DNA of 64,000 nucleotides. It comes from Halorussus gelatinilyticus (lineage in GTDB: Archaea; Halobacteriota; Halobacteria; Halobacteriales; Haladaptataceae). Positions 17,818 through 49,388 of the stretch are shown in pieces. Numbering within the stretch: position 1 is the first letter of the stretch; each line of letters opens with the position of its first letter. The notes below the pieces were generated by a model that did not search any database, was not told the origin of the DNA, and saw nothing but the letters and a program-made list of their open reading frames with translations. The DNA lies in assembly GCF_023238445.1 (NCBI RefSeq), contig NZ_CP096658.1, positions 868,001-932,000 of the forward strand, given 5' to 3'. Position numbers and translations under genes: made by a program.

Positions 17818-18882
17818 TCACTGCTTCGGTTCGGGGTCGAAGACCTCGGGGTTCTCCTCGCCCTCGGCGGCCACGATGGCCATACAGCCCTTCCGGGCGA
17901 CCCGAGTCAGCGAGTGGTCCACGAGTTTGAACGCGCCGGGAACCGGGAATCCCATCGTGGCGACGGTGGTGCTACCGGGCGCGACCTGCTTAGTCTGGAT
18001 GTGGGTCTGGGGCTTCGTCGTCAGCGACCCCTCGGGCCAGAGCTTCTCCCAGACGTTGCCGATGGGGTGGAAGCTACTGGTGAGGTTCGGGCCGCCGGTG
18101 ACGAAGAACACCCGCGCGGTGTCGCCGGTCTGGACCTTGCCCGCGCCGTACTTGTCGGGCGTGCAGGCGTACTTCTCGCCGTTCATCACGACGTAGGTCG
18201 GTTCCTCGCGCTTCATCGACTCGATGTCGAAGTTGTGCTGGCCCTTCTCGCCGGGGCGCTTGTCGGTGTAGATCTCGTGCTGGCCGAAGTAGAACTCGTG
18301 GTCCACCTCGGGGAGACCCTCCTCGGGTTCGACGAGGATGATGCCGAACATGCCCGCGGAGATGTGCATGTCCATGTTCGGGACGGCGCAGTGGTAGATG
18401 TACGCGCCGGGGTAGGTCGCCTCGAACTTCAGGTGGGCGGTCTCGCCCGGTGCGGTCATCGTCGCCTCGGCACCGCCGCCCGGTCCCGCCGCCGCGTGGA
18501 AGTCCACGTTGTGGGGCATGTCGTTCTCGGCGGGGTTCTCGAAGGTGAGGTTCACCGTGTCGCCCTTCCGGACCCGAATCATCGGACCGGGGACCTGCCC
18601 GTTGTAGGTCATGTAGTTGAACGTCACGCCGTCTTCGACTTCGGCCGTGACCTCCTCGGGTCGGAGGGTCACGTCCACCTCCTTGGACTCGTTGCGGCTA
18701 ATCGGGTCCGGGATATCTGTCGGGGCCGCGGCGACGCGCTTGGCGGTCTGCTGTTTCTGCTTGTTCATGGCTTTCTGGGTCTGGGTCGCTTTCGGGGCGG
18801 AGCGGGTGGAACACCCGGCGAGGGTGGCCGCGCCACCGAGGCCGATACCTTGCAGGACCGTGCGACGATTGGTTGCGGGCAT
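17818..18882 (-). CDS. nirK: Copper-containing nitrite reductase
   Basis: NirK reduces nitrite to nitric oxide on the outer face of the membrane. The 354-residue precursor has a Tat signal (RRTVLQGIGLGG) ending in a lipobox LAGC, then a Lys/Gln linker and two cupredoxin domains. Type 1 copper ligands are visible in MPHNVDFH and YIYHCAVPNMDMHISAGM (His, Cys, His, Met). Type 2 ligands are His in NVDFH, YIYHC and SSFHPIG. A CGAACGTGTTCG palindrome lies 80 nt upstream. It shares the strand with nor, which lies just upstream of it. Confidence 0.96.
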   Translation of the reverse strand: MPATNRRTVLQGIGLGGAATLAGCSTRSAPKATQTQKAMNKQKQQTAKRVAAAPTDIPDPISRNESKEVDVTLRPEEVTAEVEDGVTFNYMTYNGQVPGPMIRVRKGDTVNLTFENPAENDMPHNVDFHAAAGPGGGAEATMTAPGETAHLKFEATYPGAYIYHCAVPNMDMHISAGMFGIILVEPEEGLPEVDHEFYFGQHEIYTDKRPGEKGQHNFDIESMKREEPTYVVMNGEKYACTPDKYGAGKVQTGDTARVFFVTGGPNLTSSFHPIGNVWEKLWPEGSLTTKPQTHIQTKQVAPGSTTVATMGFPVPGAFKLVDHSLTRVARKGCMAIVAAEGEENPEVFDPEPKQ

Positions 18883-22221: not shown

Positions 22222-22449
22222 TTACTGCTTCGGGAACTTGGCGACGAACTTCTGGCTCTCGGGTCGCTCGACCTCGTAGCCGTCGGCGTCGAACGACTCG
22301 ACTTCGGCCTGCATCTCGTAGAACAGCGGCTTGGGCTCGTGGTCGTTGACGATTTCGAGGACCTCGCCGCTGTCCATCTCGGCGAACGCGTCGTGTATCT
22401 TGGGATGTCGTTCCGGCGGTGGTATCTCGCGTACGTCTAACCTCGGCAT
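22222..22449 (-). CDS. DUF2249 protein (denitrification-linked), copy 1
   Basis: The 75-residue protein is almost entirely one DUF2249 domain: LDVREIPPPERHPKIHDAFAEMDSGEVLEIVNDHEPKPLFYEM, ending KFVAKFPKQ. The fold is related to the TusA/SirA type, but the active Cys is absent. Function is unknown; the domain recurs near nitrate and nitrite reductase genes. A CGAACGTGTTCG palindrome lies 40 nt before the ATG, and a cupin gene follows 8 nt after the stop. Confidence 0.85.
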   Translation of the reverse strand: MPRLDVREIPPPERHPKIHDAFAEMDSGEVLEIVNDHEPKPLFYEMQAEVESFDADGYEVERPESQKFVAKFPKQ

Positions 22450-22489
22450 ACACGTCGAAGTTGACGGACGCGAGCCTTCGCGGTTGTCC

Positions 22490-22501
22490 CGAACGTGTTC
22501 G
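22490..22501 (-). promoter_or_regulatory. CGAA-N4-TTCG palindrome, DUF2249/cupin operon
   Basis: The palindrome is 40 nt before the ATG at 22449. Read toward the gene, it continues GGGACAACC, an extension shared with the two other stand-alone DUF2249 promoters. No good TATA box is seen. Confidence 0.75.
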
Positions 22502-22543
22502 GCTACGGGGGAGGAGTGGTTCGTGCCACTGACGCGCTCCGCG

Positions 22544-22581
22544 GGCGCGGTCCGCGCTCACTTCGTTCGCTCCGGACCGCG
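22544..22581 (-). terminator. Hairpin overlapping the end of the second cupin gene
   Basis: Ten-bp arms (22544-22553 and 22572-22581) with an 18-nt loop span the stop codon at 22558. It may separate this gene from the DUF2249 operon downstream. There is no T-run. Confidence 0.35.
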
Positions 22582-22950
22582 CGGCTCGAACTCCCCGCGC
22601 TTCAACCCCTCGCGCACGGGGTCGTGTTCGGCGTCGGTCGGCGGCGGCGCGGTGACGAGCGTCGCCTCCAGTCGGTCGCCGTCGCCGGCTCTCACGCCGC
22701 GCTCGTCGCCCGCCGGGACGACCACCACGTCGCCCGGTCCCACCTCGCGTTCGTCGTCGCCGTCGCGGACGACGCCCCGGCCCTCGCGGACCGTAATCGC
22801 CACGTCGCTGTCGGGCGCGTGTACCGGGATGAACTGCCCCGGTTCGAAGTAGCCCAGCACGACCTTCATCCGGTCGCTCCGGAAGACGGACTGCGCCGAG
22901 AACCGTTGGTCGTCGTACTCTCGTTCGACGTCGAAACTGGTCGTGACCAT
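22558..22950 (-). CDS. Cupin domain protein, second copy
   Basis: This 130-residue cupin differs from the one at 21905 by an N-terminal extension and a charged C-terminal tail. The motifs FIPVHAPDSDVAITVREGRGVVRDGD and VGPGDVVVVPAGDERGVRAG mark the two strand pairs; only one clear His is in the metal motif, so metal binding is less certain. Its ATG is preceded by a CGAACGTGTTCG palindrome at exactly 38 nt, making it an independent regulon member. The ligand is unknown. Confidence 0.8.
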   Translation of the reverse strand: MVTTSFDVEREYDDQRFSAQSVFRSDRMKVVLGYFEPGQFIPVHAPDSDVAITVREGRGVVRDGDDEREVGPGDVVVVPAGDERGVRAGDGDRLEATLVTAPPPTDAEHDPVREGLKRGEFEPRGPERTK

Positions 22951-22988
22951 GTTCGAGACGTAGCGCGAGGCGGCCGTGGCGGTGTCGC

Positions 22989-23000
22989 CGAACGTGTTCG
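22989..23000 (-). promoter_or_regulatory. CGAA-N4-TTCG palindrome, 38 nt before a cupin gene
   Basis: CGAACGTGTTCG sits in the 63-bp gap between the oxidase-like membrane gene and the cupin gene, 38 nt from the ATG at 22950. The spacer has no clear TATA box. Confidence 0.75.
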
Positions 23001-23013
23001 GCCGTCGGTAACT

Positions 23014-24426
23014 TCACGACAGGTCGTCGGCGTCGTCGGCCGCGTCTCCGGACGCGGCCGACTCGCCGGACGCGACCGCTCCGCTCGATTCGCCGAGCGT
23101 ACCGACGCGGAGCGACTCCGGGCCGTGGCGGACGACGACGCCGGTCAGATTCGCGGCGAAGGCGGTGAACCCGACGAGCGCGAGCGCACCGCCGGCGAGC
23201 AGTAGGGCCTCGGCGTCGCCGACCTCGCCGAGAACGACGAGACCGACCCCGGCCAGTGTCAGCCAGAAGTCTACGGCCGCGAGGCGGCCGTCGTACAGGT
23301 CGTCTATCATCGGGACGGGTTCGAGTCCCACGCGGTCGCTGTACCGCCGGACCCAGACGACGAACGGGACGACGTGGTAGAGCGTGCCGAGCAGGACGAA
23401 CCCGACCGCGCCGGCCGCGAGCAGGTGGCCCGCCGCGGGGTGGCCGAACGTCGTCGCGGGGTCGGCCGGGCGCGCGAGCCACGACGGGAGCGCCGCGAGC
23501 GCCCACGCCGGGAGCGCCACCGCGACGACCGCGTATCGCGACAGCATCGGCGTCCGCTCGACCTTCGTCTCCCGGAGCTTCCGCGCGAGGACCGCCGCGA
23601 ACGCGAGCAGGCTCGCCGCGACGAGGAGCGCGCCGACGCGCGCGACCCACTCCGCGCCGACGAGTCGCCCGGCGGCGAGCGCGAGGACGCCGGGCGTGTA
23701 CGCGAGTTCTTGGGCGCGCTGGAGCGTCGTATCGACTCCCCGGAGTTCGGTCTGGGTGAACATCGTGGCGAGCTGGTAGAGCGCGCCGACGACGGTCGTG
23801 AGGACGATGCCGAACACCGCGAACGTCGCGTGCGCGGCGACGACTCGCGGGCGGGCCAACCCCGTGGGAGCGAGCGTCGGGCGAACGAAGTCGAGCGCGA
23901 GGAGAAATCCGAGCGTCGTCACGAGCAGGACGTGGCCGAGCGCGAGCGCGAAGTGGCGCTCGGTCGCGTCGAGCGGGAGACCGTCGCCCTCCTCGGCCGA
24001 CCCGCGCCCCGCGGCCCGCCACAGCGTCCGGCCGACGTTGTAGACGAACAGCCAGAACCCCGCGAGCATCGTCGCGCCGGCTGCGGGCAGGAGGTCGAGT
24101 CGTCCGGCCACGAGCAGGCCCGCGAACCCCGCGACCCCGCCCGCGACGAGCGCGAGTTGCGCGAGCGCGAGTCGCCGCGAGTGGAGTTCGACGCCCGACC
24201 AGACCGGCACGAACTGGGTCATCGCGCCGAGAATCGTGAGACAGACCCACCCCACCAGCAGGAGGTGGACGTGCGCGAGTCCGTGGAGTCCCGGCGCGAG
24301 ACCCGCGGCTCCGAGGAGGCCGAGCGCCGCGCCCGCGAGCAGAAAGGCGAACCCCGCGAGGAAGTGCGCGAGGGGCACGGCCATCGGCGGGCCGCGGTCG
24401 GCGTCGATGCCGGCGGGGACGCTCAT
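23014..24426 (-). CDS. Polytopic membrane protein resembling haem-copper oxidase subunit I
   Basis: The 470-residue protein has about twelve transmembrane helices. Intramembrane His occur in LHGLAHVHLLLVGWVCLTILGAMTQFVP, VAAHATFAVFGIVLTTVVGALYQ and LGTLYHVVPFVVW. The first pattern resembles a haem-ligand helix of cbb3-type and NO-reductase-like subunits. Full oxidase and NOR signatures are absent, so it may be a haem-binding or NO-responsive membrane protein (NnrS-like in role, not clearly in sequence). Its ATG overlaps the stop of the upstream DUF2249 gene (ATGA), so the two are translationally coupled. Confidence 0.7.
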   Translation of the reverse strand: MSVPAGIDADRGPPMAVPLAHFLAGFAFLLAGAALGLLGAAGLAPGLHGLAHVHLLLVGWVCLTILGAMTQFVPVWSGVELHSRRLALAQLALVAGGVAGFAGLLVAGRLDLLPAAGATMLAGFWLFVYNVGRTLWRAAGRGSAEEGDGLPLDATERHFALALGHVLLVTTLGFLLALDFVRPTLAPTGLARPRVVAAHATFAVFGIVLTTVVGALYQLATMFTQTELRGVDTTLQRAQELAYTPGVLALAAGRLVGAEWVARVGALLVAASLLAFAAVLARKLRETKVERTPMLSRYAVVAVALPAWALAALPSWLARPADPATTFGHPAAGHLLAAGAVGFVLLGTLYHVVPFVVWVRRYSDRVGLEPVPMIDDLYDGRLAAVDFWLTLAGVGLVVLGEVGDAEALLLAGGALALVGFTAFAANLTGVVVRHGPESLRVGTLGESSGAVASGESAASGDAADDADDLS

Positions 24427-24674
24427 CGCGGCTCTATCTCCACCCGCCACTCGTCGGGGGCGACCCGCTCGGTCTCGTGGTCGAAACCGCGCTGGTCCAA
24501 CACCCCGTAGAGCGGTTCGGGCTCGAAGCTGTTGTACAGGACCAGCGTCTCGTCGTCGCCGAGGTCCGCGAGCGCCGACGTGATGGCCCCGAACGGTTCG
24601 CCGTCTATCTCCCGCGCGTCGAGTTCGCGCGTGGACTGTTCGTCGGTCGCGCCGGACGTCGTATCGTGGCTCAT
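24423..24674 (-). CDS. DUF2249 protein, copy 2
   Basis: The 83-residue protein has an acidic Ser/Thr tail of about 18 residues and then one DUF2249 domain (LDAREIDGEPFGAITSALADLGDDETLVLYNSFEPEPLYGVL). It overlaps the following membrane-protein gene by 4 nt (ATGA), so the two products are probably made together. A variant palindrome (CGACCATGTTCG) lies exactly 38 nt before the ATG at 24674, which favours this start over an in-frame codon at 24719. Confidence 0.84.
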   Translation of the reverse strand: MSHDTTSGATDEQSTRELDAREIDGEPFGAITSALADLGDDETLVLYNSFEPEPLYGVLDQRGFDHETERVAPDEWRVEIEPR

Positions 24675-24699
24675 GGTTCGTACTCCGTTCGGTTCGGGT

Positions 24700-25587
24700 C
24701 TATCGGTTGTCCCGACCATGTTCGACGGGCGGTTCCGCGAGGTGGGCGTCGCTGACGGTCGATTCTCCGCCTCGGCCGCGAACGACCGGGAACTCGTCGG
24801 GAACGCCGAACCCGTACTCCCGCAACCGCTCGGCGTCCCCGACCAGATTCCGGTGGAACGCCCGGCCGCGGTCGGTCAGGTACGCCGCGCCGTACTCGAT
24901 GGGTTCGCCCCGAATCGTCTCGCCGCCGACCGTCACCGCGGCGCTCCGGTAGTGGTCCGCGAGCGCGGGGTCCGAGAGGTCGAACCTCGGGGACAGGTCG
25001 AGGTGCGGCAGGTCGTGGGCGACCGCCATGTTCCGGTAGGCGAACGCGGCGTCGAGTCCGCCCGCCTCCAGCGCCCGGAGGAGTTGGGTCTCGGGGAACA
25101 CCTCGGCGTTCCCCCGAATAGCCTCGGCGGGCGCGCCCTCCCGGCCAGCGAGTTCGAGCGCGAGCAGCGTCCGGTAGCCCAGCGGGTCGCGGGCCGGGTC
25201 GGTCCGGCCGACCGAGACCGCCTCGCGGGCGAGCGCGGCCCGCCAGTCGTCGCGGACGACCGGGGCGTACTCCGACTCCGGGTCGTAGACCACGGTGAGC
25301 GCGTTGGTGGCGAAGGCGGCGTGCCACCCCGCGAGGTCGGTGACGAGACCGGGCGCGGCGAGTGCGAGCGCGTCGGGGTCTCGCGCGCCCGACCGGACGA
25401 GTTCCGCCGCGGCCAGACTCCCGTGGGCCTCGGCGGTCGCGCCGTCCACCTCGCCCGCGACGGTCTGGAGGCTCCCGGCGACCAGCGCGGTGGCGCGTCC
25501 ACCCTCGTTTCGGGACTCCGTGACTCGAACGCCGACAGCGCCGGCGGCGAGCCCGCACCCCGAGAGCAGCAGCGTTCGTCGTCGCAT
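24700..25587 (-). CDS. Molybdate/tungstate ABC transporter substrate-binding protein (WtpA/ModA type)
   Basis: The 295-residue extracytoplasmic binding protein starts with a Tat-like lipoprotein signal (MRRRTLLLSGCGLAAG). The body fits the archaeal WtpA pattern: HGSLAAAELV, LALAAPGLVTDLAGW, a central region FAYRNMAVAHDLPHLDLSP, and a late segment YLTDRGRAFHRNLVG. Molybdenum is needed for NarG. No permease or ATPase gene follows; the next gene is a DUF2249 gene. The start ATG at 25587 is 81 nt from a palindrome shared with narG. Confidence 0.82.
   Translation of the reverse strand: MRRRTLLLSGCGLAAGAVGVRVTESRNEGGRATALVAGSLQTVAGEVDGATAEAHGSLAAAELVRSGARDPDALALAAPGLVTDLAGWHAAFATNALTVVYDPESEYAPVVRDDWRAALAREAVSVGRTDPARDPLGYRTLLALELAGREGAPAEAIRGNAEVFPETQLLRALEAGGLDAAFAYRNMAVAHDLPHLDLSPRFDLSDPALADHYRSAAVTVGGETIRGEPIEYGAAYLTDRGRAFHRNLVGDAERLREYGFGVPDEFPVVRGRGGESTVSDAHLAEPPVEHGRDNR
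24713..24724 (-). promoter_or_regulatory. Variant palindrome inside the 3' end of the binding-protein gene
   Basis: CGACCATGTTCG (one mismatch from CGAA-N4-TTCG) overlaps the last codons of the gene ending at 24700. It lies 38 nt before the DUF2249 ATG at 24674, followed toward the gene by GGGACAACC. Confidence 0.6.
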
Positions 25588-25668
25588 GTTCGGAGGTCGC
25601 GGCTGTCGGCCCAAAAAGGCGGTCGGGCGTTTTCAGTCGGCGGGAATCGCACTCAAAAACCCCCGTCC

Positions 25669-25680
25669 CGAAGGTGTTCG
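25669..25680. promoter_or_regulatory. CGAA-N4-TTCG palindrome between narG and the binding-protein gene
   Basis: CGAAGGTGTTCG lies 112 nt before the narG GTG and 81 nt before the divergent binding-protein ATG. On the minus side a TATA-like ctttttgg (around 25609) follows at the same general distance seen for nirK and nor. Confidence 0.65.
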
Positions 25681-25792
25681 CCGGCGTTGTCACGCGGTTG
25701 GAATCGGCTCGTCGGTTGAAGGTTACGAAGAGGTGAGGTCCGAACTGTATGACACGAGTAACTGCGCGAACGACGGCGGGAGGTGGGTCGCG

Positions 25793-28700
25793 GTGAGCCT
25801 CTCGCGGCGCGACTTCATCCGCGGTGCCGGGACGGGAGCCGTCGGCGCGCTCCTGACCAGCGGTTGGGGCGCGACCCAGAGCGTCGACCCCGTGACCGAC
25901 GTGAAGAACCCGCTGAAGTCGTATCCGAATCGGGACTGGGAGCAGGTCTATCACGACATCTACGCCTACGACGGGGTGGACTGGACGGTCTGTCACCCCA
26001 ACTGCACCCAGTCGTGCGCCCTGAACTTCTACATGAAGAACGGGATTCCGATTCGGGCCGAACAGGTGTACCACAACGAGGAACCGAGCGTCGGTCCCTC
26101 CGGCTACGAGGACGCGAACGTCAGCCAGAACTGGAACCCCCGCGGGTGCATGAAGGGGCTGACGCTCCACCGCCGGACGTTCGAGCCGAGTCGCATCAAG
26201 TACCCGATGGTCCGGAAGGGCTGGTCGCCCGACGACCCGAACCCCGAAGGTCGAGGGGAAGACGAGTTCGAGCGCGTCTCGTGGGACGAGGCGGTGGACC
26301 TCATCGCCGAGAAGATGGCGAGTCTGGACGACAACAAGCGGTTCCACATCTTCAACGCCATCAAGGCCGACGGTCTCATCACCCGCCACGGCGCGGGCCG
26401 ACGCCTCGCCTCCATCTTCGGCGGCTGCGAGTGGACCGAGTACGACTGGTACGCCGACCTGCCGCCGGGCCACGTCATCACGACGGGCTACCAGACCAGC
26501 GACTCGGACGCCAGCGCGTGGCGGAAGGGCGACTACACCATCATCCAGGGCAAGAACCTCATCCACAACAAGCTCGCGGACAACCACTGGTTGCAGGAGT
26601 CCCGCGAGCGCGAGGGCAAGATGGTCGGCATCTACCCCGACTACTCGCCGACCGTCCAGAAGTGCGACCGGTGGCTCCCCATCCGGCCCGGTTCCGACCC
26701 GGCGATTCCGCTCGGGTTCGCCCACGTCATCGTCCGGGACGAGCTGTACGACGCCGACTTCATGCGGAAGTTCACCAGCCTCCCACTGCTGGTGCGCTCG
26801 GACGACGACAAGTACCTCCGCGCCCACGAGGTATTCTCCGACCGCGAACCGCCCGCCGAGGGCGACGAACACGACTGGGGCGACTTCGTGGTGTTGGACC
26901 GGAACGGGAACCCGAAAGCTGTCACCCGCGAGCAGGTCGGCGACGAGATGCCCGTCACGCCCAAGCTGGAGGCCGACACCGAAGTCTCGCTGGCCGACGG
27001 CGGGTCGGTCTCGGTCCGGACCGACTTCGCGCGCCAGAAGCGGAACGTGATGGAGAACTACTCGCCCAAGCAGGTCGAGGAGATAACCACGGTTCCGGCC
27101 GACGCCATCGAGAAGACCGCCAAGGAGTTCGCGGCTGCCGAGAAGGGTCAGTGGTTCACCGGCGAGGGCATCAACCACTGGTTCCACGGCAACTCGGAGC
27201 TCCAGCGCTCCATCTTCTTCGTCCAGTCGATGCTGGGCAACGTCGGCGACGCCGGGAAGGGCTACTACAACTACTCGGGCCAGTACAAAATCGAGTTGCT
27301 CGACGGCTACCCCCACTACGTCAACCCCGACGGCAACTCGGCCCACGGGATGTATCCGGGGTACGCCTTCGCGTTCTTCGGCGGCGAGCAGTTGGATCCC
27401 CACGAGATTCGGGGCGACTTCGACCGGGAGATGGACCTCGTGCCCCAAGGCGACGCCGACGAGCCGGTGATGCCGAAGGGCGCGAAGTCGTACACGATGT
27501 CCAAGCCCACGATTCTGTGGACGATGAACTGCAACCTCCTGAACCAGACCAAACATCAGGAGCACGTCGTCAACAACTTCACGAAGCACCCGGACACGAG
27601 CAACGAACTGTTCGTCGTCTCGGACATGCACATGACGTACTCGGCCCAGCACGCCGACATCGTGCTTCCCTGTCCGTCGTGGCTCGAATGCGACTACCCC
27701 GACATCACGGTCGGCCCGGAGAACCCCTTCATCACGATGGACTCCGGGGTGATGGACCCCATCTACGACACGAAGCAGGACGGCGAGGTGCTGGCGATGG
27801 TCGCCGAGAAGTTGGACGAGAAGATTCCGCCCGAGGAGCGCAACGTCGATTCGTACCGGTCGTACTTCTCGGAGTTCCTCGACGACGACGGCGACGTGCG
27901 CAAGTACATCCAAGAGACGCTCGACGCGGGCATCACGACTCAGGACATCGACGTGAAGGACCTCGAAGACGGTCCCGAGCGCCTGAGCCTCAAGACGTAC
28001 CCGCGCATCCCGTTCTACTCCCAGATTCACGACGACCGGCCGTTCTACACCAAGACCGGCCGGATGGAGTTCCACAAGGAGGAAGACCGGTTCATCGACC
28101 TCGGGCGCGACGACTTGGACCACATCGAGAGCGTCGAGGGGACGCCCTACGGCGTAAACCAGAAGTGGCCCGAGGCGGGCGAGGAGGAGAACCCCCTCTA
28201 CCACGACGAGGGCTACCAGTTCTACTACAACACGCCCCACAGCAAGTACCGGACTCACTCCTCGTGGGGGATGACCGACTGGAACCTCATCTGGGCGTCG
28301 CGGGACTTCGGTTCGACCAGCGCCGACCCGGAGGGCACCGAGCGACTGATTGACGACTTCTCGTTCCCCGAGGCCGAGGGCGAGACCAGCGACGCGCCGC
28401 CGCTCGGCGAGGCGTTCGTCGAGATACACCCGAGCGACGCCGAGCAGATCGGCGTGGAGAACGGCGACTACGTGCGAATCAAGGGCAAGCGCGGGGGCAC
28501 CGTCGTCCGCGCGATGTTGAGCGAGCGCCAGCGCCCCGGCAAGGCGGGCGACATGGGCCAGCTCACCCTCTGGCACGGCTGGTGGCCCCAGCACTTCCCC
28601 GACGACGAGGAGAAGGGCGACGACGAGGTGAAGGGGTTCAACACGACGACGAACATCTGGCTCGACCCCGGCCAGGAGACCGACGAACTCGTCCACAAGG

Positions 28701-28996
28701 CGGTGTTCGGCGACCCGAACGTCTCCGAGAAGGTGGGCGAGGACATCGCGTGGCACGGCGCGGAACTCGAACACGGCTACGAGGAGACCGTCTGGGCACC
28801 GACCGGGGTGAACCGCGACGACCTCGTGACCGTCGAGAAGTACCAAGAGGCCGACTGGTGGCCCGGCGACGCTCGGAAGGACGAACTCGTCTCCGACTAC
28901 ATCGGCGGGTCGCTCCAGTCGAAGGGCGGCGGTAGCGGGACGACGACGGGCGGCAGTGGGACGACCAGTAGCACGACGACGCGAGGTGACGACTGA
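25793..28996 (+). CDS. narG: Respiratory nitrate reductase catalytic subunit (external type)
   Basis: NarG reduces nitrate to nitrite at a Mo-bis-MGD centre. The 1067-residue precursor has a Tat signal (SLSRRDFIRGAGTGAVGALL), so the active site faces outward, as in other archaeal Nar enzymes. The N-terminal Fe-S motif is VCHPNCTQSC with a later Cys in NPRGCMKG. The cofactor domains follow, and the C-terminus is a Gly/Ser/Thr-rich tail. The GTG at 25793 is preceded by a purine-rich gggaggtgg; the only nearby ATG (25749) is out of frame. It overlaps narH by one base. Confidence 0.95.
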   Translation: MSLSRRDFIRGAGTGAVGALLTSGWGATQSVDPVTDVKNPLKSYPNRDWEQVYHDIYAYDGVDWTVCHPNCTQSCALNFYMKNGIPIRAEQVYHNEEPSVGPSGYEDANVSQNWNPRGCMKGLTLHRRTFEPSRIKYPMVRKGWSPDDPNPEGRGEDEFERVSWDEAVDLIAEKMASLDDNKRFHIFNAIKADGLITRHGAGRRLASIFGGCEWTEYDWYADLPPGHVITTGYQTSDSDASAWRKGDYTIIQGKNLIHNKLADNHWLQESREREGKMVGIYPDYSPTVQKCDRWLPIRPGSDPAIPLGFAHVIVRDELYDADFMRKFTSLPLLVRSDDDKYLRAHEVFSDREPPAEGDEHDWGDFVVLDRNGNPKAVTREQVGDEMPVTPKLEADTEVSLADGGSVSVRTDFARQKRNVMENYSPKQVEEITTVPADAIEKTAKEFAAAEKGQWFTGEGINHWFHGNSELQRSIFFVQSMLGNVGDAGKGYYNYSGQYKIELLDGYPHYVNPDGNSAHGMYPGYAFAFFGGEQLDPHEIRGDFDREMDLVPQGDADEPVMPKGAKSYTMSKPTILWTMNCNLLNQTKHQEHVVNNFTKHPDTSNELFVVSDMHMTYSAQHADIVLPCPSWLECDYPDITVGPENPFITMDSGVMDPIYDTKQDGEVLAMVAEKLDEKIPPEERNVDSYRSYFSEFLDDDGDVRKYIQETLDAGITTQDIDVKDLEDGPERLSLKTYPRIPFYSQIHDDRPFYTKTGRMEFHKEEDRFIDLGRDDLDHIESVEGTPYGVNQKWPEAGEEENPLYHDEGYQFYYNTPHSKYRTHSSWGMTDWNLIWASRDFGSTSADPEGTERLIDDFSFPEAEGETSDAPPLGEAFVEIHPSDAEQIGVENGDYVRIKGKRGGTVVRAMLSERQRPGKAGDMGQLTLWHGWWPQHFPDDEEKGDDEVKGFNTTTNIWLDPGQETDELVHKAVFGDPNVSEKVGEDIAWHGAELEHGYEETVWAPTGVNRDDLVTVEKYQEADWWPGDARKDELVSDYIGGSLQSKGGGSGTTTGGSGTTSSTTTRGDD

Positions 28997-30177
28997 TGCC
29001 AGAAGTGTACAATCCGCAACTCGGCCGGAAGCAGAGCTACCCCTACGAGCATCGCCAGGAGGAGCGCGACTGGCACTGGGGGATGGTCATCAACACGAAC
29101 CGGTGTATCAACTGCAACACCTGCTCGTTCGCCTGCAAGTCCACGTGGACCAGCGGGAAGGGCGAGGAGTACATGTGGTGGATGAACGTCGAGACCGAAC
29201 CCTACGGGGGTTACCCGATGGGGTGGGACATGCGCCTGCTCGACGACTTGGGTCCCGAGGAGACCATCTTCGAGGCCGCCGAGCAGGGCGAGAAGGTCAA
29301 GGGGTACGTCGCCCAGAAGGAGGAGTGGGAGTATCCCGCCTTGGGCGACGACTCGGTTCACGGCGAGTACCCCGAGGACGAGGTGGTCGAGTCCGACCCC
29401 GAGAAGGGCAAGTATCACGACATCTGGCAGTTCTACCTGCCGCGCCTCTGCAACCACTGCAAGAACCCGGCCTGCCTCGCGGCCTGTCCCCGGAAGGCCA
29501 TCTACAAGCGCTCGGAGGACGGCATCGTCCTGCTCGACCAGGAGCGGTGCCGGGGCTACCGCAAGTGCGTGAAGGCGTGTCCGTACCACAAGCCGATGTA
29601 CAACCCCGAGACCGGGGTTTCGGAGAAGCCGGTCGGCTGTTTCCCCCGCATCGAGGAGGGCAACGTCCCGCGGTGCGTGAGCAGTTGCATCGGGAAGACC
29701 CGACTCCACGGCAACATCAACCGGGGTCCGAACTCCGGCCATCCGAACGGCAAGAAGTCGGCGGCGAAGGGCCGGAGTCCCGTCAACTACCTCGCCCAGT
29801 CCGACGAGAAGGTCGCGCTCCCGCTCTACCCGCAGTTCGGGACGCGCCCGCAGGTGTTCTACATGCCGCCGTACCACGTCCCGCCGGAGTTCCTGACCCA
29901 GATGTTCACGCCGAACACCGACCAGAAGCGCAACGACTGGCCGGGTAGCACCTACGAGGAGTCGGTCAAGATCATCCAGAAGCGCGTCCGGAACCCGAGC
30001 CACCACCTGCTCGGGGTCCTCCAGTTGTTCGGCGCGACGACCCGGCTCATCGAGACGTACACCGTCAAGGAGAACAAGGTGAAGGGCTGGGACCGGAAGG
30101 GGAACAAAGTCGTGGACATGCCCATCGAGGAGGACCTCGAAGTCCGCGAGGGCGAGAAGTGGACCAACCAACCGTGA
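28996..30177 (+). CDS. narH: Nitrate reductase iron-sulfur subunit
   Basis: NarH passes electrons from the haem subunit to NarG through four Fe-S clusters. The 393-residue protein has four Cys groups: CINCNTCSFAC, CNHCKNPACLAAC, CRGYRKCVKACP and a final set around CFPRIEEGNVPRCVSSC. It has no signal of its own and is probably exported with NarG through the Tat pathway. Its ATG overlaps the narG stop (ATGA). Length is shorter than bacterial NarH (about 510) and close to that of DMSO-reductase-family subunits of the archaeal and chlorate/perchlorate type. Confidence 0.95.
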   Translation: MPEVYNPQLGRKQSYPYEHRQEERDWHWGMVINTNRCINCNTCSFACKSTWTSGKGEEYMWWMNVETEPYGGYPMGWDMRLLDDLGPEETIFEAAEQGEKVKGYVAQKEEWEYPALGDDSVHGEYPEDEVVESDPEKGKYHDIWQFYLPRLCNHCKNPACLAACPRKAIYKRSEDGIVLLDQERCRGYRKCVKACPYHKPMYNPETGVSEKPVGCFPRIEEGNVPRCVSSCIGKTRLHGNINRGPNSGHPNGKKSAAKGRSPVNYLAQSDEKVALPLYPQFGTRPQVFYMPPYHVPPEFLTQMFTPNTDQKRNDWPGSTYEESVKIIQKRVRNPSHHLLGVLQLFGATTRLIETYTVKENKVKGWDRKGNKVVDMPIEEDLEVREGEKWTNQP

Positions 30178-30186
30178 GGTGACAGC

Positions 30187-30978
30187 ATGGACGACACACC
30201 ACACAGCGACGCGACCGCAGACGGCCGGGAGGTACCCCCTGCAGAGCGCCACGCGGCCCGCTCGGCGCTCTACAGCGCCGCGGCCGGGGTCTTCTGCTAC
30301 CCCGACGACGACCTCGTCGCGGACCTGACCCACGAGGGGACCGCCGAGGGACTGCGCGAGGCCGGGCGGAAACTCGACCTCGAAGCGGAGGTCGAGACCC
30401 TCGTCGGCGCGCTCGGCGAGACGACCCGCGACGACCTCGAATCGGCGTACAACGACCTGTTCGGCCTGCCGGGTGCCGACGGGAGCTACCCCGTGGTCCC
30501 CTACGAAGCCGAGTACACGGTCGGCGACGAGGTGGGCCGCCAACAGCGCCGCATCGCGACCGTCGTGGGACTCCTCGAAGCGTTCGGCGTCGAACCCGCC
30601 GACCGGTTCGACGAGCGCCAAGACCACGTCGTCGTGGAACTCGAACTGGTGCAGGTGCTGGCGGCGCGGCGAGCGGTCGCCCGCGAGGAGGGCGACGACG
30701 ACACCGCGGCCAACCTCGAACGCGCCGAGGCGATGGTACTCGAGGAACACCTCGGGGACTTCGTGCCCGCGTTCGCCCACGAGGTCCGTGAGTCCACGCC
30801 CGACCCGAGCGAGGTCCTCGGAGCCGACGAAGACGACGCCGACCGGCGCGAGGCGGCCGCCGCGGTCTACCGCGCGGCCGCCGACCTCGCGGAGAGCGTC
30901 GTCACCCGCGACGTGGCGACCCACCCCGAACCCGACGTGGACTTCGACGCCGCCTCGGAGGTGAAGAGCCGTGCTTGA
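30187..30978 (+). CDS. narJ: TorD/NarJ-family chaperone
   Basis: NarJ/TorD proteins bind the NarG signal and apoprotein until cofactor is inserted. The 263-residue helical protein has the family segments ALYSAAAGVFCYPDDDLV, LESAYNDLFGLPGADGSYPVVPYEAEYT and HLGDFVPAFAHEV. The acidic C-terminus is longer than in bacterial TorD. It follows narH by 9 nt and overlaps the next gene by 8 nt, placing it firmly in the nar operon. The assignment as NarJ rather than another TorD rests on this context. Confidence 0.85.
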   Translation: MDDTPHSDATADGREVPPAERHAARSALYSAAAGVFCYPDDDLVADLTHEGTAEGLREAGRKLDLEAEVETLVGALGETTRDDLESAYNDLFGLPGADGSYPVVPYEAEYTVGDEVGRQQRRIATVVGLLEAFGVEPADRFDERQDHVVVELELVQVLAARRAVAREEGDDDTAANLERAEAMVLEEHLGDFVPAFAHEVRESTPDPSEVLGADEDDADRREAAAAVYRAAADLAESVVTRDVATHPEPDVDFDAASEVKSRA

Positions 30979-31978
30979 CGAGGACGCCGCGCGGCGCGCG
31001 ACGATAGTCACCGTGGTCGTCGTGGTCGCGCTCGTCGCCGCCCAGTCCGCGGTCACGGCCGCGGTCACGGGCGGGAGCCAACCCGCGATGGCCGTCGAGT
31101 CGGTGCCGAGCGACCCCGCCGCCGCGACGTGGCAGGACGCGCCGACCCGGACCGTCTCGCTGTCGAAACAGCAGATGGCCCCGCCGTTCGGCGGCGGGAG
31201 TACCGACGAGGTGGACGTCCAGACGGTCCACAACGAGACCCACACCGCGTTCCGGTTGACGTGGCAGGACCCGACCCGCGACGCGAACATCCGCGCGCCG
31301 GAGAACTACAGCGACGCCGCCGCGGTGATGCTCCGGACCGGCGACAAGCCGCCCATCACGATGGGCGCGGCCGGGAAGCCCGTGGACATCTGGTACTGGC
31401 GCGCGAGCTGGCAGTTCGAGAACCGGTCGGCGTTCGGCCAGATGTACACCTACCCGCACCCGAACAACGAGACGATGCCGGGGCGGGCCGCCGGAAACCC
31501 GCTCTCGAAGCCCCAGTACGAGCAGTTCGCGCAGAACTACTACGCGAAGGGGTACGGCTCGCTGAGCCACGCGCCCCGCCAGAACGTCCACGCGACCGCC
31601 GAGTACGAGGACGGCCAGTGGTCGGTCGTCTTCACCCGGAAGCACGACACCAAAGGCGAGTTCGACGCGTCGTTCTCCGGGTCCGAGCCGGTGTATCTGG
31701 CGTTCGCAGTCTGGAACGGGAGCGCCGACGAGGTGAACGGCCAGAAGTCCATCACGCTCCAGTTCACCAAGCTCGACACCCAGAAGTGGGCGATGAGCGA
31801 CGCCAGCACCGGCGGGAGCGACTCGGGGAGCGGCCAGTCGGCCGGCGGGTCGTCCGGGACGAGTTCCGGGCAGTCGAGCGGGCCGTGGATAGTTCACTCG
31901 GTGAGCAACTGGGTCGTCGGTCTCGTGGCGACGACCCTGCTGACGTGGACGGTCGTCTACTGGAGGTCCAGAGAATGA
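30971..31978 (+). CDS. Ethylbenzene-dehydrogenase-related haem b subunit
   Basis: The 335-residue protein matches the haem-b gamma subunits of ethylbenzene dehydrogenase, dimethylsulfide dehydrogenase and chlorate reductase. It has an N-terminal signal anchor (residues 10-31), then the beta-sandwich domain with TAFRLTWQDPTRD, DIWYWRASWQ and AVWNGSADEVNGQKSI. A Ser/Gly-rich linker and a C-terminal membrane helix (about 308-328) follow. It would receive electrons from a quinol-cytochrome system or halocyanin and pass them to NarH. It takes the place of NarI in this operon. The start is GTG. Confidence 0.87.
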   Translation: MLDEDAARRATIVTVVVVVALVAAQSAVTAAVTGGSQPAMAVESVPSDPAAATWQDAPTRTVSLSKQQMAPPFGGGSTDEVDVQTVHNETHTAFRLTWQDPTRDANIRAPENYSDAAAVMLRTGDKPPITMGAAGKPVDIWYWRASWQFENRSAFGQMYTYPHPNNETMPGRAAGNPLSKPQYEQFAQNYYAKGYGSLSHAPRQNVHATAEYEDGQWSVVFTRKHDTKGEFDASFSGSEPVYLAFAVWNGSADEVNGQKSITLQFTKLDTQKWAMSDASTGGSDSGSGQSAGGSSGTSSGQSSGPWIVHSVSNWVVGLVATTLLTWTVVYWRSRE

Positions 31979-33030
31979 GCAACGAGTACAAGAACCGGAG
32001 CGCCCGCGCTCGCTCGCCACTTCGCGGTAGCGAAGCGACCGAGGAGGACGGAGCGGACGGCGAGGGCGACGACGAGGCCTCGCTCCGGAGTCTGCTCGAC
32101 TCGCCCTGCGAGTACGAGCGCCGGGACGCCGCGCTCGCGCTCGTGGACGAGGCCGAGTCGGAGGGCCTCGACGCGGAGACCGCGCGGGCGCTGGCGGACC
32201 GACTCGCCGTGGACGACAGCGCGGACGTGCGCCAGTTCGCGGTCGAGGCGCTCGGCGTCGCGGGTCCCGGTACGCCCGCGGACGTCGAGACCGCGGTCCG
32301 GGGCGCGCTCGACGACGGCGACGAGTGGGTCCGCGCGGAGGCCGTGGTCGCGCTCTCGCGGGTCGCACCCGACGCCGACCCCATCGCCGACGCGCTCGAC
32401 GACGACAGCGGGTGGGTCCGCCGGAACGCGGTCATCGCGCTCGGCAAGACCGAGCGGGCGACCTTCGAGGACCTGACCGACCGCATCAAGAACGACGCCC
32501 ATCCCGCGGTCCGGGAGTACGCCGCGCGCTACCTCGGCGAGTGCGCCGAGCGCGACGACTCGTACGAGGCGGACGCGGTCCGCCTGCTGGCGGCGGTGCT
32601 GGCCCGCGACCCCGAGGCGTTCGTCCGGGCGAAGGCCGCCGAGGCGCTCGGGGGGCTCGCCACCGACCGGGCCGAGCAGGCGCTCGAAACCCACGGCATC
32701 ACCGACCGGAGCGACGACGTGAAGCGAACCGCCAAGCGCGCGCTGGCGTCGGCCCGCGGCGTGGACCCCGACCAACTGGACGTGGAGATAGACGACGGAC
32801 CGCCCGGCGGCGGGCCGCAGACGCCCGGCGAGACGCCGGGCGGACCGGGGCCGGGTGGCGGTCCCGGCGGTGGACCGAATAGCGGTCCCGGAAGCGGACC
32901 GAACGGCGGGACGGGCCGACCGGGACCCGGTAGCGGCCCCGAAGGAGGACCGAGCGGTGGCCCCGGACGACGGCCGCCCGAACCGGGAGAGACGCCCGGA
33001 AGAAGCCCCGAAGACGCGAACGAGAGGTGA
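31975..33030 (+). CDS. HEAT-repeat protein with Gly/Pro-rich tail
   Basis: The 351-residue protein has an acidic N-terminus, then about six HEAT/PBS-lyase-like repeats (residues 45-255; examples are SADVRQFAVEALGVAG, GWVRRNAVIALGK, AFVRAKAAEALGGLA). A disordered tail of about 90 residues is built from GGP/PG repeats. No signal or membrane segment is seen. Such repeats usually bind proteins or cofactors, so an assembly role for the nitrate reductase is plausible. The ATG overlaps the previous stop (ATGA). Confidence 0.82.
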   Translation: MSNEYKNRSARARSPLRGSEATEEDGADGEGDDEASLRSLLDSPCEYERRDAALALVDEAESEGLDAETARALADRLAVDDSADVRQFAVEALGVAGPGTPADVETAVRGALDDGDEWVRAEAVVALSRVAPDADPIADALDDDSGWVRRNAVIALGKTERATFEDLTDRIKNDAHPAVREYAARYLGECAERDDSYEADAVRLLAAVLARDPEAFVRAKAAEALGGLATDRAEQALETHGITDRSDDVKRTAKRALASARGVDPDQLDVEIDDGPPGGGPQTPGETPGGPGPGGGPGGGPNSGPGSGPNGGTGRPGPGSGPEGGPSGGPGRRPPEPGETPGRSPEDANER

Positions 33031-33036
33031 ACTACG

Positions 33037-33618
33037 ATGTCCAAGACCGACCCCGAGAGCGGAGGCACAGAGAACGAATCGGTGGGAGTGTCCATCCCCG
33101 ACGACCACGTCGGCGCGTTCGTCGCCGAGGTGTTCGAGGACGTGGAGCGCGACACGACGTGGGAGCAGGTCGTCTCGGCGCTGGTCGCCGAGGAAGCCCG
33201 CGAGGAGTGGAACGAGTTGTCTGCGCGCGAGCAGATCGCCGCGGTCCTCTCGACCGCGGCGGACTACGACGAGCGCGCGGCCGACCGCCTCGCCGGAATT
33301 CCGACCGACCGGGGCAAGCCCACGCCCGAAATCCGCGAGGAGTACGACGAGGCGATGCGGTGTCGCCGGAACGCCGACCAGTTCCGCGACGGCGTGGCCG
33401 CGGCCTACGCCGAGGGCGTGGTCGGCGACGACGAACTGGTCGCCGCGGTCGAGGAGGGCGAGTTCGACGCGGGCGTCGTCGCCGAGCGCGAGGACGAACT
33501 CGACCGGGTGGCCAACGCCTTCGACTTCGACTACCGGCCCTACGGCGGGACGCTGATGCACGACGAGGACGGCGAATCGGACGAGGAGAACCCGCTGGAA
33601 GACTTCGAGGCGTGGTAA
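33037..33618 (+). CDS. Unknown protein encoded in the nar operon
   Basis: This 193-residue, acidic, mainly helical soluble protein has a conserved-looking Arg/Cys segment (EAMRCRRNADQFRDGVAAAYAEGVV) and ends in DFDYRPYGGTLMHDEDGESDEENPLEDFEAW. It has no signal, metal motif or recognised domain. It lies 6 nt after the HEAT-repeat gene and 1 nt before the Mrp-fusion gene, so it is co-transcribed and probably helps make or regulate the nitrate reductase. I do not recognise its family. Confidence 0.78.
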   Translation: MSKTDPESGGTENESVGVSIPDDHVGAFVAEVFEDVERDTTWEQVVSALVAEEAREEWNELSAREQIAAVLSTAADYDERAADRLAGIPTDRGKPTPEIREEYDEAMRCRRNADQFRDGVAAAYAEGVVGDDELVAAVEEGEFDAGVVAEREDELDRVANAFDFDYRPYGGTLMHDEDGESDEENPLEDFEAW

Positions 33619-33619
33619 C

Positions 33620-35104
33620 ATGAGCGACACCGAGACGCCGGACGGCGAGGTTTCGGACGAAGCGACTCCGAACGAGGCGATTCCGGACAGCGAGGTTTCG
33701 GCGCGGGTCGAGGACGCGATAGCGAGCGTCGAGGACCCCGACTTCGGCGCGAGCGTGCTGGACGCCGGACTCGTGACCGACGTGGCCGTCGCCGACGGCG
33801 CGGCGACGATTACGGTGGACCTCGCGGGCGCGGACCCCGAGGCCGCCGAGGACGTGACCGAGGCGATGCGACGCGAGGCGTTCGAGGTGCCGGGCGTCGA
33901 GACGGTTCGAGTCGAGGGCGAGACGCCCGACTCCGGCGGGGTGCGCGGTGGCGGAGCGCATGGTGGCGGCGCACGCGGCGACGCGGCGGGGTCCGGTGGA
34001 GCAGGGTCCGGCGCGGCGGGGTCGCACGACCACGGCGGCGCACACGACGCCGGCGCGCACGGTGGCGGTGGCGGCCTCGCGCTCCCCGAAATCGACCACG
34101 TAATCGCGGTCGGGAGCGCGAAAGGCGGCGTCGGCAAGACCACCGTGGCGACCCACCTCGCTCGCGCGCTGGCCGACGAGTACGACGTGGGGTTGTTCGA
34201 CGCGGACATCCACGGCCCGAACGTGCCCGAGATGGTCGGCGTCGAGGGGCCGGTCGAGGCCACCGACGACGGGCGGGCCGCTCCCGCCGACGCGGACGGG
34301 ATGCAGGTGATGAGCGTCGGCCTGGTAGCCGACGACGCGCCGCTGGCGTGGCGGGGCGCGATGGCCCACGACGCGCTGACCGAACTGCTCGAAGACACCG
34401 CGTGGACCGACCGGGACGTGCTGGTCGTGGACCTGCCGCCGGGGACCGGCGACGTGGTGTTGACGATGCTGCAGGAGGTGCCGGTCGCGGGGTCGGTGCT
34501 GGTGACGACGCCGTTCCCGACCAGCCTCTCCGACACGGGGCGGAGCGCCGCGCTGCTGGAGGAGAACGGCGTCCCGGTCGTCGGCGCGGCGGTGAACATG
34601 CGCGGGTTCACCTGCGAGAACTGCGGGCACGACCACGACCTCTACGGCGGCGGCGAGAGCGGTCCCGAGGAGGAACTCGGCGTGGAGGTGCTGGCCGAAC
34701 TTCCCTTCGACCGCGGGTTGCAGAACCCCGGCGAACCCGGCGAGGGCGAGCGTTCGGACGCCGAGCGACCCGACGCCGCGACTCCCGACCCCGTCGCCGA
34801 CCTCGCGCAGTCGGTCGGCGAGTTCGTGGAGAGCGACGACTCCGGGCCGGTCTCGGTGCCCGACTCGGCGCTCGACGTGCGGGGACTCCCGCCGCGCATC
34901 CGCCACGAGCAAGTCGGCGAGGAGTTCGCGGCGTTGGCCCCCGGCGAGGAGTTCTACGTCGTGAACGACCACGACCCATCGCCGCTGGCCCAGATGCTCG
35001 CCGGGGAGTTCGCCGAGGAGTCGGCCGACGAGGCGTTCGAGACCTGCGAGGTCCACCGCCGCGCGCCGGACGAGTGGGTGCTGGAACTCCAGCGAGCGGT
35101 CTGA
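33620..35104 (+). CDS. DUF59-Mrp/NBP35 ATPase-DUF2249 fusion (Fe-S carrier type)
   Basis: The 494-residue, three-domain protein has a DUF59/MIP18-like N-terminus (about residues 22-105), then a His/Gly-rich linker (about 110-150) and a P-loop ATPase of the Mrp/ApbC family. The P-loop GSAKGGVGKT is at 165-174, with the FDADIHGPNVP switch and the Fe-S-bridging pair C332/C335. The last 80 residues form a DUF2249 domain (LDVRGLPPRIRHEQVGEEF onward). Mrp proteins carry and insert [4Fe-4S] clusters; at the end of the nar operon the likely client is NarGH. The DUF2249 fusion ties that domain to cluster delivery. Confidence 0.9.
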   Translation: MSDTETPDGEVSDEATPNEAIPDSEVSARVEDAIASVEDPDFGASVLDAGLVTDVAVADGAATITVDLAGADPEAAEDVTEAMRREAFEVPGVETVRVEGETPDSGGVRGGGAHGGGARGDAAGSGGAGSGAAGSHDHGGAHDAGAHGGGGGLALPEIDHVIAVGSAKGGVGKTTVATHLARALADEYDVGLFDADIHGPNVPEMVGVEGPVEATDDGRAAPADADGMQVMSVGLVADDAPLAWRGAMAHDALTELLEDTAWTDRDVLVVDLPPGTGDVVLTMLQEVPVAGSVLVTTPFPTSLSDTGRSAALLEENGVPVVGAAVNMRGFTCENCGHDHDLYGGGESGPEEELGVEVLAELPFDRGLQNPGEPGEGERSDAERPDAATPDPVADLAQSVGEFVESDDSGPVSVPDSALDVRGLPPRIRHEQVGEEFAALAPGEEFYVVNDHDPSPLAQMLAGEFAEESADEAFETCEVHRRAPDEWVLELQRAV

Positions 35105-43554: not shown

Positions 43555-43833
43555 TTATTCCTCCGTCTCGCGCCAGATGGCCGTCAGGACGACCTCCTCG
43601 TCGGTCACGGTCTCGTACTCGTATCCCCTGTCGGTCAGTTTCGGATAGAGGTGTTGCGGTGCCCGGTCGTTGGCCTGCACGAGGACCGTCTCGTCGTCCG
43701 CCTCGGCCAGTCGCTCCAGCGTCTCGGTCAGCGGCTCGGGCGGTCCGAGGCTCCGCACGTCCAACTCCTCGCGCGGCCGGTCGGCCGGGGCGTCGGTGCG
43801 CTCGACTCCGCGCTCGGTGAACTGCGCCTGCAT
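43555..43833 (-). CDS. DUF2249 protein, copy 3
   Basis: The 92-residue protein has a charged N-terminus of about 25 residues and one DUF2249 domain (LDVRSLGPPEPLTETLERLAEADDETVLVQANDRAPQHLYPKL). Three in-frame starts are possible; the ATG at 43833 places a CGAATACGTTCG palindrome exactly 38 nt upstream, as for other members, which decides the start. It lies next to, and divergent from, a bacterio-opsin-activator-type regulator gene. Confidence 0.82.
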   Translation of the reverse strand: MQAQFTERGVERTDAPADRPREELDVRSLGPPEPLTETLERLAEADDETVLVQANDRAPQHLYPKLTDRGYEYETVTDEEVVLTAIWRETEE

Positions 43834-43871
43834 ACTAGCGACGACGCGGCCCATCGTCACGGGCGTTGTCC

Positions 43872-43883
43872 CGAATACGTTCG
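43872..43883 (-). promoter_or_regulatory. CGAA-N4-TTCG palindrome, 38 nt before DUF2249 copy 3
   Basis: CGAATACGTTCG is followed toward the gene by GGGACAAC, the extension shared by the three stand-alone DUF2249 promoters. Confidence 0.75.
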
Positions 43884-43914
43884 GAGCCGGGACCGGTGTC
43901 CCCGCCAGGATACC

Positions 43915-43926
43915 CGAACGTGTTCG
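43915..43926 (+). promoter_or_regulatory. CGAA-N4-TTCG palindrome before the regulator gene
   Basis: CGAACGTGTTCG lies 44 nt before the ATG at 43971. A TATA-like acttatcc (about 43933-43940) follows it, making this one of the few sites with a visible TATA box. Confidence 0.7.
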
Positions 43927-43970
43927 GCAGGACTTATCCGGGCGGTGGGCGAGAAGGAGTAGATAGAGAG

Positions 43971-44594
43971 ATGCCAACGGCGAAACTACACATTTCGCTC
44001 CCCGAGAGCGTCTGGATTTCGGAGGTATCGACGGCCCACCCCGACGCGGAGTTTCGCGTCCTCGCGGCCTTCCCCGCCGAGGAGACCGGCGTCGGCCTGC
44101 TCGAAATCTCGGCCGACGACCTGCCGGCGGTCGTGGCCGCGATGGACGACCGCGAGGACATCACCCGACTCGACCTCCAGCAGGCGTCCGAAGAGTCCGC
44201 GCTGGTGGAGTTCGAGACGACCGAACCGCTCCTGCTGTTCTCGGTCCAGGAGTCGGGCCTCCCGCTGGAACTGCCGTTCACCATCGTCGACGGACAGGCC
44301 GAGGTGGAACTGACCGCCTCGCGCGACCGCCTGTCGGCGTTCACGACCCAACTGCAGGCCTTCGGGATGGACTTCGACGTGGAGTACGTCCGCGAGATGG
44401 TCAACTCCGAGAGCCTGCTGACCCAACGCCAGCGCGAACTCCTCCACACCGCGGTCGAGGAGGGCTACTACGACACCCCGCGGGAGTGCTCGCTGACCGA
44501 ACTCGCCGAGGAGGCGGGCGTGGCGAAATCGACCGCGAGCGAGACGCTCCACCGCGTCGAGGAGAAAATCGTCAAGGAGTACGTGGGCGAGTAG
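43971..44594 (+). CDS. Bacterio-opsin-activator-type HTH regulator
   Basis: The 207-residue protein has an N-terminal sensory region (about 1-145) and a C-terminal HTH_10 domain (LTQRQRELLHTAVEEGYYDTPRECSLTELAEEAGVAKSTASETLHRVEEKIVK). The known denitrification activator NarO has the same HTH type but a Cys-rich N-terminus. This protein has a single Cys, in the HTH, so it is not a direct NarO orthologue. It has the regulon palindrome upstream and is likely a regulon member or co-regulator. The upstream ATG alternatives lack support. Confidence 0.85.
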   Translation: MPTAKLHISLPESVWISEVSTAHPDAEFRVLAAFPAEETGVGLLEISADDLPAVVAAMDDREDITRLDLQQASEESALVEFETTEPLLLFSVQESGLPLELPFTIVDGQAEVELTASRDRLSAFTTQLQAFGMDFDVEYVREMVNSESLLTQRQRELLHTAVEEGYYDTPRECSLTELAEEAGVAKSTASETLHRVEEKIVKEYVGE

Positions 44595-49380: not shown

Positions 49381-49388
49381 GGAACTAC

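Follow-up and report, generated by a model that had tools for sequence, protein, structure and literature searches.

DUF2249 genes in a haloarchaeal denitrification cluster

DUF2249 (PF10006) is found widely, but no biochemical role has been assigned to it. We analysed the genes that encode it in a 64,000-nucleotide stretch of the Halorussus gelatinilyticus chromosome (contig NZ_CP096658.1; hereafter the window). A whole-genome profile search of this 3.67-Mb haloarchaeal chromosome returned PF10006 matches at exactly four sites, all within the window and all above the curated cut-off of 29.5 bits (45.7-83.7 bits). Copies A, B and D are stand-alone domains, and copy C forms residues 418-491 of a protein that begins with DUF59 and an Mrp-type NTPase. 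The genes of NirK (17818-18882) and qNor (19088 to ~21.4 kb) and a type II molybdoenzyme operon (25793-35104) lie nearby. These matches and neighbours bear out an earlier reading of the sequence without database searches (the sequence-only reading), which had described four DUF2249 copies, one of them fused to DUF59-Mrp, in a denitrification context. The range given there, 22222-35104, contains A, B and C, and copy D, at 43555, falls outside it. We rejected four as a meaningful copy number because other haloarchaeal genomes hold 1-12 matches.

The same four DUF2249 proteins were described in Haloferax mediterranei, in which all are induced under denitrification and share a promoter motif, and a member of the nar operon is annotated as "P-loop NTPase, iron-sulfur carrier protein (containing a DUF2249)" (Miralles-Robledillo et al. 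2024, PMC11218638). Since this inventory and the fusion are published, the observation itself is not new. That study matched only one protein to the Thermus protein DrpA, and we found in it neither an assignment of the other copies to halves of DrpB nor a DUF59 neighbourhood. New here are the class assignments, the co-occurrence across Halobacteria, the link between the fusion and its operons, and the linkage of DrpA-type genes to DUF59.

A palindrome, CGAACGTGTTCG with at most one mismatch, precedes all four DUF2249 transcription units, the molybdoenzyme operon included (Table), and CGAAYATRTTCG was found 9 times against 0.24 expected. B and D probably start downstream of the starts of their longest open reading frames (ORFs), at 24674 instead of 24719 and at 43833 instead of 43977, respectively. 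With the starts set there, the palindrome lies 38-40 nucleotides before all three stand-alone DUF2249 genes, a spacing that it also shows at the cupin gene. In the A, B and D promoters the palindrome is followed directly by GGACAAC (extended elements at 22483-22501, 24706-24724 and 43865-43883), and the H. mediterranei motif, CGAAYATDKTYG, is of the same kind (PMC11218638). The earlier count of three copies under the palindrome was one short; the molybdoenzyme operon, which contains copy C, has its own at 25669. A further palindrome at 43915 faces the gene of an HTH_10 regulator, which is divergent from DUF2249-D.

The molybdoenzyme large subunit scored 436 bits against Nitrite oxidoreductase NxrA of Kuenenia (PDB 7b04), its closest solved relative, 264 against PcrA and 177 against NarG. 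In the same comparison the classical haloarchaeal NarG gave 744 bits with PcrA, 478 with NarG and 160 with NxrA. We therefore rejected the operon as a classical NarG-type nar operon. By the scores of its large subunit it is of the nitrite oxidoreductase (NXR) type, and the enzyme may either reduce nitrate or oxidise nitrite. Unlike the setting of Kuenenia NxrA, this operon sits in a denitrification cluster, and it also differs in type from the operon of H. mediterranei, in which the same fusion belongs to nar. Approximately 19 of 60 type II gamma-subunit matches in a search of the class Halobacteria fall in the low-scoring class that contains the window operon. A gene for a WtpA-like protein (tungstate/molybdate-type substrate-binding; 24700-25590) lies between DUF2249-B and the operon.

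Table. Features of the DUF2249 loci (positions in the window).
Feature	Coordinates	Strand	Evidence and remarks
DUF2249-A, 75 amino acids, DrpA-type stand-alone domain	22222..22449	-	PF10006 83.7 bits, E 8e-24; RH and NDHEP motifs conserved
Palindrome CGAACGTGTTCG upstream of DUF2249-A	22490..22501
Cupin-domain gene	22558..22950	-	PF07883 E 1e-8; palindrome upstream at 22989
Membrane protein, 11 predicted transmembrane helices, distant haem-copper oxidase relative	23014..24450	-	COX1 match weak, below cut-off
DUF2249-B, counterpart of DrpB-type first DUF2249 domain, without the conserved His	24423..24674	-	ORF 24423-24719, start probable; PF10006 67.2 bits, E 1e-18; class B profile
Palindrome, 1 mismatch, upstream of DUF2249-B	24713..24724
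Palindrome, 1 mismatch, upstream of molybdoenzyme operon	25669..25680
Type II molybdoenzyme large subunit, NXR-type, GTG start, RR signal	25793..28996	+	TIGR03479 425 bits, below its cut-off
Molybdoenzyme Fe-S subunit	28996..30177	+	TIGR03478 229 bits
Type II enzyme chaperone, TorD/NarJ-like	30187..30978	+	PF02613, TIGR03482
Haem b subunit (EB_dh)	30971..31978	+	TIGR03477 160 bits
HEAT-repeat protein, before the fusion in both operon types, start inferred	31975..33030	+	PF13646
193-amino-acid protein of NXR-type operons, no assigned family	33037..33618	+
DUF59 - Mrp/NBP35 NTPase - DUF2249-C fusion	33620..35104	+	FeS_assembly_P (DUF59), NUBPL/Mrp P-loop NTPase, PF10006 (65.5 bits)
DUF2249-D, counterpart of DrpB-type second DUF2249 domain	43555..43833	-	ORF 43555-43977, start probable; PF10006 45.7 bits, E 6e-12; weak TusA match, E 3e-5; class D profile
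Palindrome, 1 mismatch, upstream of DUF2249-D	43872..43883

Classes, fold and co-occurrence with denitrification

Thermus DrpA and DrpB are DUF2249 proteins that were proposed to act as nitrate sensors (PMC6282519). To compare them with the window copies, we built class profiles from haloarchaeal DUF2249 sequences and matched these to Thermus and rhizobial proteins. Class A, to which the copy at 22222 belongs, was the best profile for Thermus DrpA (99.7 bits) and for rhizobial proteins of ~90 amino acids. Thermus DrpB, like three didomain proteins of rhizobia, matched class B (24423) with its first domain and class D (43555) with its second. As judged by these profiles, the window encodes a DrpA-type protein and, as separate genes, two DrpB-type DUF2249 halves, in addition to copy C; the copies are not equivalent. 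Copy A, like Thermus DrpA, is a single class A domain with conserved His, and His15 and His37 (in RH and NDHDP) are invariant in the 42 class A sequences aligned (rows from plasmid records left out). Thermus DrpB carries DUF1858 at its N-terminus followed by two DUF2249 domains, whereas B and D are separate and gave no DUF1858 match, so that the pair may work like a split DrpB by analogy without being one. In both organisms the genes lie beside a nitrate enzyme operon. Thermus has a stand-alone DUF59, and near the haloarchaeal loci only the DUF59-Mrp-DUF2249 fusion was found.

The predicted structure of copy A (mean predicted local distance difference test score of 90.4) has the order beta-alpha-beta-alpha-beta-beta, which is also that of the TusA/SirA sulfur carriers, and aligned to SirA-like 3hz7, TusA 3lvj and TsuB 8k1r with TM-scores of 0.66-0.73. 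A sequence search for a solved DUF2249 structure gave no real match. The model supports a TusA-like fold for DUF2249, and a sulfur relay of the TusA kind would draw on this fold, on the weak TusA match of class D and on two D-like proteins of Pseudomonadota that retain the TusA CP motif. However, all four window copies have Pro or Gly at the position of the TusA catalytic Cys (CPxP), which confirms the absence of this Cys noticed in the sequence-only reading, and among the haloarchaeal classes a conserved Cys occurs in one column of one tandem class only. Sulfur relay is thus largely refuted for the window proteins and we consider it highly improbable. Judged from the fold, the two His of class A would probably occupy the former site of the TusA Cys.

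A profile search for DUF2249 set against denitrification genes, as proposed in the earlier reading, was run on 194 near-complete Halobacteria genomes with NirK, qNor and NosZ as markers, and DUF2249 was scored as present above the cut-off. DUF2249 was present in 133 genomes and tracked the markers: NirK, qNor or NosZ occurred in 123 of these 133 genomes versus 10 of the 61 without it (odds ratio 63, p 2e-26). In 20,000 shuffles of labels within genera, 150.3 +/- 4.0 genomes were concordant compared to 174 observed, and none reached this number (p <= 5e-5). Therefore, the association does not reflect shared ancestry at the genus level only. Nine genomes held DUF2249 and none of the tested markers; in one of them copy A sits beside a membrane gene with haem-copper oxidase (HCO) homology.

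DUF59 as a proposed partner of DUF2249

The fusion protein encoded at 33620-35104 carries the deviant Walker A motif KGGVGKT and the Cys pair CENC, the features by which Mrp/NBP35 iron-sulfur (Fe-S) carriers are recognised in sequence. Both are common to ApbC/Mrp Fe-S carriers and MrpORP (PMC6345978), from which the fusion differs by its additional DUF59 and DUF2249 domains and by the CxC pair of many NXR-linked relatives. A parallel in architecture is HCF101, a DUF59-Mrp-DUF971 Fe-S carrier (PMC7980591) that likewise joins DUF59, an Mrp/NBP35 NTPase with a Cys pair and a small C-terminal domain of unknown role. DUF971 was not found in 33620-35104, where DUF2249 stands in its place. Further differences are that the fusion is archaeal, is tied to molybdoenzyme operons and belongs to a set in which DUF59 mostly lacks its usual Cys.

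Across Halobacteria, 52 of the 60 type II gamma-subunit genes have the fusion within 10 kb, in every case on their own strand and in 50 cases downstream (median distance 3.6 kb). It is common to two operon classes, the window-like class and that of the classical haloarchaeal NarG, although their large subunits are only ~28% identical. The sequence-only reading had placed the fusion at the end of the nar operon. The position at the operon end stands, and the operon type should read NXR-type and Nar-type operons. All 30 fusions compared have the Mrp Cys pair, as CxxC or CxC. An apparent loss of the CxxC in NXR-linked fusions was rejected as a pattern artefact, the pair being CxC there. These NXR-linked fusions mostly keep the DUF2249 His motif (NDHDPSP), and their Cys pair is often CxC; in Nar-linked fusions the pair is mostly CxxC.

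Outside haloarchaea, a search of named genomes with the class A alignment, which favours close relatives of DrpA, yielded 80 loci in bacteria and Thermoplasmata. DUF59 was encoded within 7 kb of 48 of these loci and within 1 kb of 25. Its density fell from 0.160 per kb in the first kilobase to 0-0.005 per kb at distances above 4 kb, and all 51 neighbouring DUF59-like domains, when scanned on their own, were PF01883. Against a background of 39 PF01883 matches in ~57 Mb of 12 of these genomes (0.68 per Mb), DUF59 was enriched ~80-fold overall; a Pfam count of long neighbours under-counts it, since long ORFs are preferred. By our own count from record titles the 48 loci cover 13 phyla (Deinococcota, Chloroflexota, Rokubacteria, Bacillota, Pseudomonadota, Actinomycetota, Armatimonadota, Myxococcota, Oligoflexia, Acidobacteria, Gemmatimonadota, the Salinivenus lineage and archaeal Thermoplasmata), and 33 of these loci contain no tested denitrification gene.

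Because this first scan was biased to DrpA relatives, we took another sample with PF10006 as the only criterion. Among 299 Pseudomonadota genomes, 64 had a PF10006 match, and DUF59 lay within 450 bp in 11 of the 60 loci examined. These comprised all seven canonical class A loci, one of seven with the FDARG variant of class A and three of seven with only the B+D didomain, versus none of 39 single-domain, mostly D-like loci. DUF59 linkage is class-specific.

Denitrification genes move as islands and are often plasmid-borne, and DUF2249 genes could then be co-regulated passengers of such an island that have no common mechanism. The within-genus tracking with NirK, Nor and NosZ, the conservation of the DUF59 neighbourhood in 13 phyla and the published growth defect of a Thermus double mutant all speak against this explanation, to which we attach very little probability.

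Possible roles: maturation or repair, sensing and haem handling

On this evidence, we see an even chance that the module in the window is an accessory for building or repairing the iron centres of denitrification enzymes. DUF59, either on its own or joined to Mrp, would supply a cluster or iron, and DUF2249 may be the adaptor that steers it to respiratory enzymes in their apo form or after damage by nitric oxide (NO). In the TusA-like domain, the persulfide Cys would have given way to Pro, with the class A His pair at the same site. The fused protein may work like HCF101, with DUF2249 for DUF971, and be dedicated to enzymes of the NXR/Nar type. DUF59 and DUF2249 are best read as a maturation or repair pair; the direction of function, the binding of metal or cluster and the role of NO are what we infer here. 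We extend this tentatively to a wider proposal, which is possible rather than probable: DUF2249 of the DrpA/DrpB kind may be the client adaptor of a dedicated Fe-S/iron pathway that serves anaerobic nitrogen respiration in Bacteria and Archaea through maturation and repair, with DUF59 as its usual partner, an HCF101-like fusion in haloarchaea and the persulfide site turned into a His metal/NO site. The DrpAB "sensor" would then really be a maturation system, with secondary effects on expression.

The main rival is the Drp model, in which DUF2249 proteins sense nitrate, nitrite or NO and set denitrification transcription. Loss of DrpA and DrpB in Thermus makes nar and dnr expression nitrate-independent (PMC6282519), and sensing was favoured in the haloarchaeal study (PMC11218638). 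The divergent HTH_10 gene next to DUF2249-D fits this model, as do the HTH_10 or Crp/Rrf2 genes that are frequent neighbours of DUF2249. However, a sensor does not need DUF59, the most constant neighbour, and the model does not readily explain why DUF2249 is fused to an Fe-S carrier NTPase; ligand binding by DUF2249 is putative. Furthermore, the Thermus drpAB double mutant makes NarG in wild-type-like amounts with ~1/10 of the activity, which its authors read as an added maturation effect (PMC6282519). This result fits a maturation role, and we regard sensing as rather doubtful.

The family as a whole is broad and functionally split. PF10006 occurs in 64 of 299 Pseudomonadota species, most loci having no tested denitrification gene within 6 kb, and Sulfolobus acidocaldarius has one match. 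Of 43 Pseudomonadota loci sampled, 24 have the single-domain D-like gene divergent from one for sirohaem synthase (CysG/Met8-like), and 13 have it upstream of a C_GCAxxG_C_C redox protein gene; these neighbours suggest that the branch has a tetrapyrrole role. Hence the earlier claim, that DUF2249 proteins may protect, repair or deliver metal centres when NO is produced, is partly supported; it is limited to the denitrification-type classes and fails for DUF2249 as a whole. Wide occurrence in genomes without denitrification, which the sequence-only reading had named as a possible refutation, is half borne out by the breadth of PF10006, but DUF2249 of the DrpA/DrpB-type classes and of the Mrp fusion remains associated with denitrification. 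Its tie to Fe-S delivery is strengthened, as the DUF59 neighbourhood in 13 phyla means that it no longer rests on the single fusion only.

The sirohaem-linked genes favour another explanation, that DUF2249 acts on haem or sirohaem, by tetrapyrrole delivery or iron insertion, and is tied to denitrification through haem-rich Nor, Nir and HCO-homology proteins. In ~30 of the 80 loci, DUF2249-A is followed by a protein with 10-12 transmembrane helices. These proteins form two families, one of which includes the window protein at 23014-24450, and nine are related to this HCO-homology protein. A relative of it also sits between two DUF2249 genes in Rhizobium (26% identity, 358 amino acids, E 3e-17). 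We take COG4309 to be equivalent to DUF2249. A 2005 regulon study linked COG4309 to norB and found the two co-transcribed (PMC1274295). Yet the sirohaem-linked D-like genes are another subfamily, the DrpA-type classes accompany DUF59, an Fe-S factor, and the operons of the fusion encode Fe-S-rich molybdoenzymes. Haem handling therefore appears unlikely.

Independent support for iron-centre repair comes from many haloarchaea that encode a ~370-amino-acid protein with four DUF2249 domains in tandem, of which three have an invariant His, as in six genomes its gene is next to one for RIC/ScdA di-iron repair. Several observations weigh against a maturation or repair role. DUF59 and Mrp are expected in the cytoplasm. 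DrpA was reported to be periplasmic in Thermus (PMC6282519), which is the strongest fact on this side, and drp mutants also alter nar transcription (PMC6282519). Eight type II operons have no detected fusion nearby, although one may wrap round a contig end. Most Nar-linked fusions lack the His of DUF2249-C (SDRDPTP), and a Cys kept by at least 90% of stand-alone DUF59 domains is mostly missing from the fused ones; the ligand set is therefore not fixed. Finally, the Foldseek E-values of the copy A model are weak (0.03-0.2).

If DUF59, a known class of Fe-S maturation factor, is the partner, the task of DUF2249 becomes directly testable and the published view of DrpA/DrpB as nitrate sensors has to be revised. 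A maturation or repair pair would further provide candidate genes, in Bacteria and Archaea, for a missing step in assembling or mending the enzymes of nitrate, nitrite and NO under nitrosative stress, and a prokaryotic parallel to HCF101 in which the same DUF59-Mrp carrier ends in a different small domain.

The DrpA-type proteins of rhizobia have a Cys-rich tail at their end, CxCCCGS, which could be a metal site and which the haloarchaeal ones lack. The Halorussus genome has one RIC/ScdA domain gene outside the window (499225-499377, ~369 kb from the window start). No CGCGG-type precursor of a ribosomally synthesized and post-translationally modified peptide (RiPP) was found in the window, although a related radical SAM gene is present at 48145-49566. 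In Halarchaeum, a CGCGG radical SAM-modified RiPP precursor follows norB, and the tail of this precursor, YEYVEQCGCGGHVVRVRV, has a weak similarity (E 0.001) to the last part of DUF2249.

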